From Spiroplasma alleghenense (GTDB lineage: Bacteria > Bacillota_I > Bacilli_A > Mycoplasmatales > Mycoplasmataceae), in assembly GCF_003363775.1 (NCBI RefSeq), contig NZ_CP031376.1, forward strand, positions 372,001-436,000: 64,000 nt of DNA. Reading direction: 5' to 3'. The notes beneath the pieces were generated by a model, which was given only the letters and a program-made list of their open reading frames with translations, had not been told where the DNA came from and ran no database searches. Shown here piece by piece: positions 6,719-25,042 of this stretch. The position numbers and the translations under genes were made by a program. Numbering within the stretch: position 1 is the first letter of the stretch; every line of letters begins with the position of its first letter.

Positions 6719-8728
6719 ATGGAAAAACAAATTGAAACTGAAGTTGAAGTTGTCGAAAAACAAGCTAGCCTAAAAAATATTGTTGCTGTAACAGCGTGTG
6801 CTGCTGGAATTGCTCACACTTATATGGCAGCTGATGCTTTAACAAAAGAAGCAAAAAGTCGTAATTTAAATATTAAAGTCGAAACCCAAGGCACTATTGG
6901 AGCTGAAAATGTTTTAACTGATATTGAAATTGCTAATGCTGATTTAGTAATAATTGCAGCTGATGTAAAAATTGATTTATCACGTTTCAATGGTAAAAAA
7001 ATTTTTCAAACTGGAGTAAATCCACCAATTAAAAATCCAGGTAAGTTGATTGATGATGCTTGGGAAAAAGGGGTGGAATATGGAAAAAAAGGGACCAAAG
7101 CTGGGTTTGTAACCTTTGGTAAAACTAAGCGCAAAGGGGTTCTTGCCCACCTAATGACAGGAATTTCTTGGATGTTGCCATTAACAATAGCTTCAGGACT
7201 ATTAATGGCTATTGCCAATTTATCAGCATTTCAAACCGAGTATGTTGATAACCAAGGGTGATACACTGAAAACTGAGTATTAGGAACTCGAGTATTTCCC
7301 CAATTCCTGATGGATGTAGGAAGTTTAGGATTCAAATTAATGATGCCTATATTTGCTGGTTTTGTGGCATACTCCATTGCCGATCGACCTGGTTTGGCAC
7401 CGGCTTTAGTGGGTGGTTGAATTATCAATGATAACAAAATGTTAGGAGTAACCGTACAGGTTTCAGAAAATTCAGCTATCGAACCAGGAGCTGGATTTAT
7501 TGGGGCAATTGTTGTGGGATTGTTAACTGGATATTTTGTCCAATTACTAAAATTAATTCGCTTCCCTAAATTTATTCAACCAATTGTGCCGATAATGATT
7601 ATTCCAATTATCTCAACAATTGCGATAGCATCGTTAGTAAAATTTGGAATTGGGGTTCCAATTGCTGGATTGGTTTTAGCAATGTTTGAAGGGTTAGAAA
7701 ATCTTAACAACCAATTTGCTGGCACCGGGATCATTATCGCCTTGATTTTGTCGATGATGATTGCCTTTGACCTTGGTGGTCCGTTTAATAAAACAGCACT
7801 TGTATTTGGAACTGTTATATTTTATCAAACCCTAGCAGAGGCGTTAGCTAAAGGAGGGACTTTCTGAGATGCTAACTTTGTTCCTGGAACTGCTACCCAG
7901 GCAGCAATTTCAGTCCCTCCATTAGGAATGTGGCTATCAACAGTTATGTTTAAAGATCGCTTTACCAAAAATGAACGAATCATGGGTACCGCAGCTTTAG
8001 GAAGTGGGGCTATGGGGATTACTGAAGGTGCAATTCCGTTTGCCGCTGCTGATCCTTTTAGAGTAATTTTTGCCAATGTTGTTGGAGCTTCGGTAGCAGG
8101 GGTTGGAGTTACATTATTTAACGTAAAATTTGCCGCTGGACTAGGTTCTCCATTGGGGGCGTTTTTAGGTTATATTCGTATGGATAATGCTCCTTTTTAC
8201 CCAATGGCTTGAATACTGCCAATATTCTTAGGGATTTTTATTACAGCTTTACTGACAGGATTAATGAAGAAAAAAATTACTGGTGAGGAATATGAAATGT
8301 ATCTACAAGATCGTAATGAAACTCGCTTGAAACGTAAAAATCGTCGTAAAAATTTTAAACTTTTATTCACTGAGCCAAAATACGCCTTTAAAAAATTTGG
8401 AGCTTCTCAAAAAATATGATGAAAAAATTTTGGTAAAAATTCAAAAGAGTACTGAGCTTGAATTGGAAATGGAATTAAAGACTACTTTGTACAATGGGGT
8501 CAAGACTTTGCCAGTTTAGGCGCCAAAATTAAAAAGACTTTTACTAAAAAAACCGCTGAACAAAAAGAGTTTTTAACTTTACAAAAAACTCAGCATAAAG
8601 AACAGTTGGCTTTAAATAAAGTTCGCCAAAAAGAAGAAAAAGAAAAAGAACGTCAACAAGATTTACAAGATCGCGAAGAAAGACGAGCTTTAGCTAGACA
8701 GAAAAAGGAAGATAAAAAAGGAGTTTAG
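6719..8728 (+). CDS. PTS system fructose-type EIIBC
   Basis: Protein of 669 aa. EIIB is about residues 17-120 with the phospho-Cys27 in VTACAAGIAHTYMAADAL. EIIC (about 140-510) has the hallmark FDLGGPFNKTA and GITEGAIPFAAADP motifs of the fructose family. A charged K/E/R-rich coiled-coil tail (about 560-669) ends the protein, longer than is usual for EIIBC. The upstream RBS GGAGG is perfect. TGA codons at 7259 and 8210, among others, are Trp, mixed with several TGG. It needs an EIIA partner, supplied by the gene that starts 1 nt after its stop. Confidence 0.92.
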
Positions 8729-23953: not shown

Positions 23954-24415
23954 ATGGTAATTTGGATAGTTTTAGCAGTTTTGGTATTTCTAATATTAAT
24001 AGGATTTGTTTGCTATACAATAATTTCCAAATTTAGAAATTATCAAGAGCAAGCTCGCCTACAAATTGCAGATGCATTTGTAAATTTGGGTGTGCCTGAG
24101 TATCAATTTGTTAATCCAGAACTTGAAATTGAACTTCTTAAAGTTGTTAAAAAAGAGGTTGTTTCGATCAAAAACAATTTCGGGTTAGCTAGAAATAATC
24201 GTGATTGGGAAGAAAATAGAATTAAAAAAAATTGTTTCAATATTGTTAAGGATTATTATGAAAAAGACTCTGGAAAAGTATTTAAGCATTTAGGTGCCAT
24301 AAAAAACCAGCATTTGTCAAAAAGCCAAATATTGGGTGATGAAACAATTTCTATTGACGAGAGAAATCGACTAATAAGAGAACTTGAAAACGAGATTAGC
24401 AAACATAAAGAATAG
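23954..24415 (+). CDS. Small membrane-anchored protein of unknown function
   Basis: Protein of 153 aa: one N-terminal membrane segment (about 2-25) followed by a charged, helical cytoplasmic domain with KNNFGLARNNRDWEENRIK in its middle. Resembles LemA-like anchored helical proteins in architecture only; I do not claim homology. ATG 23954 is chosen because GAGG lies 6 nt upstream; GTG 23942 is the alternative. A TATAAT at 23915-23920 is a plausible -10. Confidence 0.72.
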   Translation: MVIWIVLAVLVFLILIGFVCYTIISKFRNYQEQARLQIADAFVNLGVPEYQFVNPELEIELLKVVKKEVVSIKNNFGLARNNRDWEENRIKKNCFNIVKDYYEKDSGKVFKHLGAIKNQHLSKSQILGDETISIDERNRLIRELENEISKHKE

Positions 24416-24422
24416 TTTTTTG

Positions 24423-24451
24423 AGACAGATTTTGGAATTTGTCTTTTTTTG
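24423..24451 (+). terminator. Weak terminator after the small membrane protein gene
   Basis: Stem AGACA (24423-24427) / TGTCT (24440-24444) with further weak pairing inside, then T7. Confidence 0.6.
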
Positions 24452-24482: not shown

Positions 24483-24875
24483 TATTTGAAATTTAATTGT
24501 AATATCGCTTGCATTATCTAACATATGTAGTAACATAAAAGAACCCCTAGCTTTTATTTGATTAGTAAACATTTGTTAGGGTTTAAAAATGTTAGCATTA
24601 AATTTGTAGAATATAAGATAAGCCCATTTACAAGTTTTTAACATTCTATAAACCCGAAAAGGAAGAAAATCTAACAAATTGAGCTAAAACTTAGATTGAT
24701 TAGAACGGAAGTACCTATAATTAAACTGCATATAAAATACTTGATTAGCTTAATATTGTTGATTAAATCTACCGTTTCATAATGAACTTTCTTTCTATAA
24801 ACCCTTTAAAAAGCTAATTTGGATGAATTATGCTTTAGCAAAAACAACCAAATTTACATTTGGTTGTTTTTTTTG
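24483..24875 (+). ncRNA. Candidate structured non-coding RNA, about 390 nt, unknown family
   Basis: No ORF fits this stretch. It has a promoter at one end and a strong terminator at the other, with several long-range perfect helices between. TAGCTTTT (24548-24555) pairs with AAAAGCTA (24809-24816) and closes the domain. ATTTGTTAG (24571-24579) pairs with CTAACAAAT (24671-24679). Inside that, GGTTTA (24580-24585) pairs with TAAACC (24649-24654), AATGTTA (24588-24594) with TAACATT (24639-24645), and TTGTA (24604-24608) with TACAA (24629-24633). A second arm has AACGG (24704-24708) / CCGTT (24772-24776) and AAGTA (24709-24713) / TACTT (24738-24742). I see no RNase P, tmRNA or SRP signature. The 5' end is uncertain. 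Confidence 0.62.
24842..24875 (+). terminator. Terminator of the structured RNA
   Basis: Perfect 12-bp stem AAACAACCAAAT (24842-24853) / ATTTGGTTGTTT (24858-24869), TTAC loop, then T5. Confidence 0.92.
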
Positions 24876-24939
24876 ATTAAATTAGATATTTATACAAGTT
24901 TTTAAATATTAAAAAAATAAAAATATTTATATAAAAGTA

Positions 24940-24967
24940 TTGAAACTTAAATTTAAGAGTGTATAAT
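24940..24967 (+). promoter_or_regulatory. Promoter of the S10 operon
   Basis: -35 TTGAAA (24940-24945), 16-nt spacer, consensus -10 TATAAT (24962-24967) preceded by GTG. Together with the leader it should drive the ribosomal block to rplQ. Confidence 0.75.
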
Positions 24968-24972
24968 TTGAA

Positions 24973-25022
24973 TTGCATGTATATTTTGTGTGCAAAGAGA
25001 CAACACACTGATAAAGGTTGTC
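24973..25022 (+). promoter_or_regulatory. S10 operon leader with two hairpins
   Basis: Hairpin TTGCA (24973-24977) / TGCAA (24991-24995), then GACAAC (24999-25004) / GTTGTC (25017-25022), in the short leader before the GGAGG of rpsJ. In other bacteria the S10 leader binds L4 for feedback control; whether this leader does is inference. Confidence 0.45.
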
Positions 25023-25042
25023 ATTGATAAAGGAGGACTAAA

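Follow-up and report, generated by a model that had tools for sequence, protein, structure and literature searches.

A candidate structured RNA gene upstream of rpsJ in Spiroplasma alleghenense

Three kinds of bacterial RNA invite comparison with the locus described here. Ribosomal leaders are found upstream of rpsJ (S10): the S10 leaders of Firmicutes and the rpsJ motif of Peptostreptococcaceae (available portions of PMC7247131 and PMC11109978). Housekeeping RNAs (RNase P RNA, tmRNA and 6S RNA) have multi-helix folds and a size range similar to that of the candidate. Lineage-specific sRNA genes, which have their own promoter and a Rho-independent terminator, are also intergenic, insulated, ended by a terminator and devoid of a reading frame. 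Typical base-pairing sRNAs are shorter and have fewer helices than the ∼335-nt candidate. The literature searched describes few Spiroplasma non-coding RNAs beyond the housekeeping set, and its open-access part yielded nothing on this RNA.

The candidate is an ORF-poor unit in the genome of the insect-associated Spiroplasma alleghenense (G000), located within a 64-kb stretch of DNA (genome positions 372001-436000) that was analysed as a whole (the window). Like the S10 leaders and the rpsJ motif it precedes rpsJ and has the same orientation; unlike them, as far as the available portions of the two papers describe these leaders, it stops at its own terminator before the rpsJ promoter. The reading preferred here, at slightly better than even odds (about 0.52), is that the unit is a free-standing, fast-evolving, structured non-coding RNA gene of ∼335 nt, which would act in trans and belong to one Spiroplasma clade. 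Its narrow distribution and rapid sequence change are again those of lineage-specific sRNA genes.

The unit is flanked on the 5′ side by w157, a gene for a small, likely membrane protein, and on the 3′ side by rpsJ (Table 1). The terminator of w157 upstream, and the unit's own terminator and the separate rpsJ promoter downstream, insulate it on both sides. An initial annotation had placed a promoter, a terminator and a highly structured RNA in a stretch without ORF. The absence of a gene is borne out: no convincing gene was found in 24483-24875, where the sole intruding ORF is a minus-strand frame of 58 aa, and the reading frames of the RNA region reach at most 53 codons, with none conserved in the sister species (G001). 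The terminator is real, with 0.1 sites of such strength expected in shuffles. An own terminator together with the lack of a conserved ORF fits a free-standing small RNA gene. The GC content is 26% in the RNA body, and 16% and 6% in the two spacers.

Table 1. Features of the RNA unit and its surroundings (positions in the window).
Feature	Position	Strand	Remarks
w157, upstream neighbour	23954-24415	+	153 aa, code 4; N-terminal membrane segment likely
w157 terminator	24422-24445	+	10-bp hairpin then T run; -8.6 kcal/mol, z -2.3
Conserved block ATATGTAGTAACATAAAAGAACCC	24523-24546	+	putative promoter -10 region and RNA 5′ end
RNA unit (candidate)	24539-24875	+	5′ end placed by inference; 3′ end is the terminator
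P1 hairpin	24540-24584	+	24540-24551 pairs with 24575-24584
P2 hairpin AAAUUUGUA/UACAAGUUU	24600-24637	+	loop with AAGCCC at 24620-24625
P3 long arm	24656-24778	+	P3a, P3c, P3d and 24-nt apical loop
P3a	24656-24662/24772-24778	+	
P3c	24675-24687/24745-24758	+	
P3d	24709-24713/24738-24742	+	24-nt loop
P5 hairpin GCUAA/UUAGC	24813-24839	+	G001 counterpart UCAAGG/CCUUGA
Intrinsic terminator of RNA unit	24840-24875	+	14 pairs; G001 counterpart exists
rpsJ promoter (TTGAAA-16-TATAAT) and leader with WhiA-like motifs	24940-25042	+	11/12 consensus; separate unit

The upstream neighbour w157 is probably outside the RNA unit. Its homologs are 60% identical in G001 and 47% in the third genus genome (G002), with one weak match in G013; in total w157 is found in four of the 60 family genomes, S. 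alleghenense itself included. Against Pfam it gives a sub-threshold match only, with no family above the cut-off, and a w157-based search of wider genome contigs found no loci. All three genus species have the w157 terminator; its z score is -6.6 in G001 and -4.1 in G002.

In spite of the similar size range, the candidate matches none of the housekeeping RNAs. At gathering score, Rfam finds one tRNA in the 64-kb window and nothing in the RNA region, and when E values up to 10 are allowed, the region and its G001 counterpart give scattered matches far below gathering (best E 0.068 and 0.025). The initial annotation had excluded RNase P RNA, tmRNA and SRP RNA, and all three are located elsewhere in the genome: RNase P RNA (RF00011) has its sole genome match at 859356-859699 (242.8 bits), with none in the window; tmRNA (RF00023) lies outside the window at 91426-91834 (109.4 bits), and ARAGORN detects no tmRNA within it; the bacterial small SRP RNA (RF00169) is at 8555-8651 (55 bits), also outside. 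The 6S RNA (RF00013) was detected in none of the three genus genomes with E up to 10. A CRISPR tracrRNA was considered and rejected: Cas9 is present in S. alleghenense only, and G001 has the RNA without a Cas9 match, which makes a shared CRISPR RNA unlikely. AT-rich RNAs of Mollicutes can score low, as the tmRNA and SRP RNA of this genome do, so that the candidate might belong to a known class that has diverged too far for its Rfam model; with RNase P, tmRNA and SRP RNA accounted for, no family near gathering score in either species, and neither 6S RNA nor a shared tracrRNA in play, such an origin is very improbable.

The RNA region folds with a lower energy than its dinucleotide shuffles. For 24483-24880 the z score is -3.12, with none of 100 shuffles equally good; without the terminator (24538-24841) it is -2.20, and two of 100 shuffles are equally good. 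The number of perfect helices, of which the initial annotation counted at least seven in favour of a structured RNA, is at chance level: seven helices of at least 8 pairs are present vs 5.75 in shuffles (5 vs 4.25 without the terminator), and 43 of at least 6 Watson-Crick pairs vs a mean of 55.2 in 100 shuffles. An outer helix spanning 270 nt had also been proposed. Its strings TAGCTTTT/AAAAGCTA are indeed present, at 24548-24555 and 24809-24816, but the fold of the G001 unit lacks this helix, which vies with hairpin P5 for 24813-24816, and it was discarded. Fold energy, covarying helices and an equally long syntenic unit in a relative lend partial support to the initial claim of a structured RNA outside known families; its seven-helix and outer-helix arguments fall away.

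The genus sample comprises three genomes: S. alleghenense, to which the window belongs, G001 and G002. G001 has the same layout, with a unit of near-equal length and a matching terminator between the w157 homolog and rpsJ. The stretches compared between the two species measure 338 and 335 nt, and this length is maintained while the distance from the w157 stop to the RNA differs (about 123 vs 99 nt). The G001 unit is itself unusually stable (z -4.06, 0/100 shuffles as good).

Comparison of the two units gives a predicted set of helices of unequal standing. P1 has one pair changed on both sides and three on one side (helix 1 of alignment A4), and in S. alleghenense it is a weak prediction, rivalled by GGGUUUA/UAAACCC in the predicted fold. 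P2 takes the form UUAAGCCUGC/GCAGGCUUAA in G001, with 4/15 pairs altered on both sides and AGCCC retained in its loop. In the P3 arm (A4 helices 4-6) 9/32 pairs are changed on both sides, in P5 (A4 helix 8) 3/7, and the terminator (A4 helix 9) has two such changes. Helix P4 of G001 has no counterpart in S. alleghenense. The credible part of this model consists of P2, P3, P5 and the terminator, in which pairing would be kept despite changes on both sides.

The letters of the RNA are poorly conserved, with a body 50-59% identical to that of G001. Global alignment with G001 gives 145/293 identities (49%) for the body, and 34/69 (49%) and 20/50 (40%) for the spacers, whereas the coding neighbours have 315/460 (w157) and 286/312 (rpsJ) identical positions, and the rpsJ promoter and leader (24926-25042) have 106/116. 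In RNase P RNA the two species are 92% identical; in the candidate RNA they differ by about half. Compared with 60 shuffles, the body reaches 146 identities against a mean of 117 and a maximum of 142, although as a proportion its identity is within the shuffle range. In A4, which includes the promoter block and terminator, 186/314 positions are identical (56% of paired and 63% of unpaired columns), and no conserved island is significant. If the RNA is real, its letters would appear to change at a near-neutral rate. Because its letters are hardly more conserved than those of the spacers, the main rival explanation is neutral drift: non-functional intergenic DNA bounded by a terminator, decaying or drifting, and maybe what is left of an earlier RNA or gene. 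AT-rich DNA folds easily, and the near-neutral identity, the chance-level helix counts, the modest z score without the terminator, the lack of significant islands and the absence of the unit from G002 are all as this explanation would have it. The constant unit length next to a stretch of differing length, and the z score of -4.1 in G001, speak against it.

Further evidence on this point comes from models of the G001 unit. R1, a full-length covariance model based solely on the G001 sequence, aligns along its whole length with 24529-24875 (13.9 bits, E 0.07), its one non-self match in 69,903 bases. R3 is a stricter test, built from the G001 body with the promoter block and terminator left out. 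Its best match in the 64-kb window is at the collinear place (24680-24754, model positions 142-224; 11.6 bits, E 0.26), which counts against mere drift; in the 5-kb surroundings with filters off E is 0.02, and 20 control loci from relatives give a single match (E 0.8). The P2 positions of R3 (58-97) fall on 24600-24637 with 2.5 bits (E 5.1). The R1 and R3 scores are weak.

A purpose-written program that folds and aligns two sequences simultaneously yields a common-fold score higher than those of 200/200 column shuffles (z 4.9; 3.65 without the terminator). The score also exceeds 42/42 rotated or reversed controls, which allow for both sequences folding well individually, with and without the sequence term; the margin is about 2-3 standard deviations, and one rotation per set is small enough to fall inside the alignment band. 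That no control reaches the score of the true pair speaks against non-functional DNA. The count of both-side changes in the same test is unremarkable, with 40 and 37 of 200 shuffles reaching the observed value. In A4, 96.4% of cells are paired, with 21 both-side pair changes, vs 87.0% and 10.6 in shuffles, and 0/500 shuffles reach either value; A4 was fitted to the G001 structure, which inflates these pairing counts and leaves the shared fold partly a product of fitting. On balance, non-functional DNA is a somewhat unlikely account of the locus, and the candidate is a real one of modest strength, outside known families.

A promoter is less clearly defined than the terminator. The scan for sigma-70-like sites found none passing the threshold at the 5′ end of the unit, so that the promoter claimed in the initial annotation is reduced to the hint offered by the conserved block. 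By a by-eye count on alignments A1/A2, 21/24 bases of this block are identical in G001; as an island within A4 it is not significant. It is a poor match to TAWAAT/TTGACA, and fits badly the Mollicute promoter elements, -10 TAWAAT and TRTG, reported in the available portions of PMC5138195. It may be the promoter of the RNA unit.

If the unit is a free-standing RNA gene, transcription would start from this weakly defined promoter near 24523-24538. The transcript is predicted to fold into P1, P2, the long arm P3 with its A/U-rich apical loop, and P5, and would end at the intrinsic terminator. Any function would most likely be exerted in trans, possibly through P3 and the P2 loop, by protein binding or by base pairing.

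The distribution of the unit is narrow. In G002 a terminator and the rplU region come after w157, and the gene before rpsJ is nagB (rplU and nagB named by inspection). The separation of w157 and rpsJ in G002, compared with G000 and G001, marks a rearrangement breakpoint at the site of the RNA. The unit is at neither candidate site in G002, and model R2 finds none genome-wide; a BLAST match at 502407-502433 covers 26 bases, with the rest of the unit lacking, and was taken as chance. Nor was such a unit seen in the rpsJ upstream regions of 18 further genomes. Among 60 family genomes R1 detects G001 only; this count of 1/60 is a lower bound, as the stricter filters of the scan also missed the S. 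alleghenense copy. Over 40 relatives, only G000 and G001 give credible R2 matches; those in G020 (E 0.6) and at G000 827585 (E 2.2) fall within reading frames or on their borders and were dismissed as chance. Two viral contigs from a pattern search do not match R2, and of the phage and plasmid searches one gave a 35-base chance match and the other none. An S10-based search of wider genome contigs returned 80 loci, with no Mollicutes among the matches listed. On present evidence the RNA is limited to S. alleghenense and one sister species.

A bolder version of the free-standing RNA gene, less likely than not, is that the locus represents a new class of large structured RNA confined to one Spiroplasma clade. 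Its letters would change at a near-neutral rate while compensatory change keeps a core, made up of P2, whose loop carries AGCCC, and the P3 arm, whose loop carries UAUARUUAAACU; such an RNA might be of recent origin or coevolving fast in a reduced genome. Should the RNA be real, it would clearly illustrate an RNA gene invisible to sequence search, in which place, length and part of the fold are kept at about half identity, and would allow the study of how fast an RNA can evolve in a reduced genome. If the unit is not transcribed, it shows how easily AT-rich spacers appear structured.

The tie between the RNA and the S10 operon is most likely one of position alone, and the candidate is very probably not an S10 leader: rpsJ has its own promoter and leader, and the relatives read have this leader in front of rpsJ, also where they lack the RNA. 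In contrast with S10 leaders, the candidate occurs in 2/3 genus genomes only, and the rpsJ upstream regions of the other relatives read did not show it. On the cis-acting reading, the unit would be an S10 leader or attenuator, in which transcription from a distal promoter halts at 24875 unless a signal opens the terminator. Its strand and its place immediately upstream of rpsJ would suit such a role, as would the P5 loop (AAUUUGGAUG), which resembles the 3′ arm of the terminator and is clearly the best partner of the 5′ arm (-7.1 vs -4.1 kcal/mol for the next); in G001, however, the P5 loop is merely the fourth-best partner (-7.4 vs -8.5 for the best). The strong rpsJ promoter after the terminator makes an attenuator unnecessary, and with the leader conserved where the RNA is lacking, attenuation is improbable.

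Within the rpsJ leader, ACAACACACTG...GGTTGTC is similar to the core motif and the auxiliary motif (GTTGT) of the WhiA operator. A WhiA operator with both kinds of motif is reported at the rpsJ promoter of Mycoplasma gallisepticum (available portions of PMC11701221), and an RNA pseudoknot considered for the leader was set aside in its favour.

Two ribosomal proteins encoded in the window carry repeat extensions. Ribosomal protein L3 (25403-26245, +) is extended at its C-terminus by acidic repeats ([10 protein letters not shown]). The uL29 gene runs from 29833 to beyond 31533 (+, code 4), and encodes an L29 domain (PF00831, E 4.4e-17) and, after it, EEVIEE and KADAEKA repeats over some 500-570 residues. 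G001 (642-aa frame) and G002 (638-aa frame) share the giant extension; there the repeats vary, and the tail in which it ends, WSIKKP...[16 protein letters not shown], is kept.
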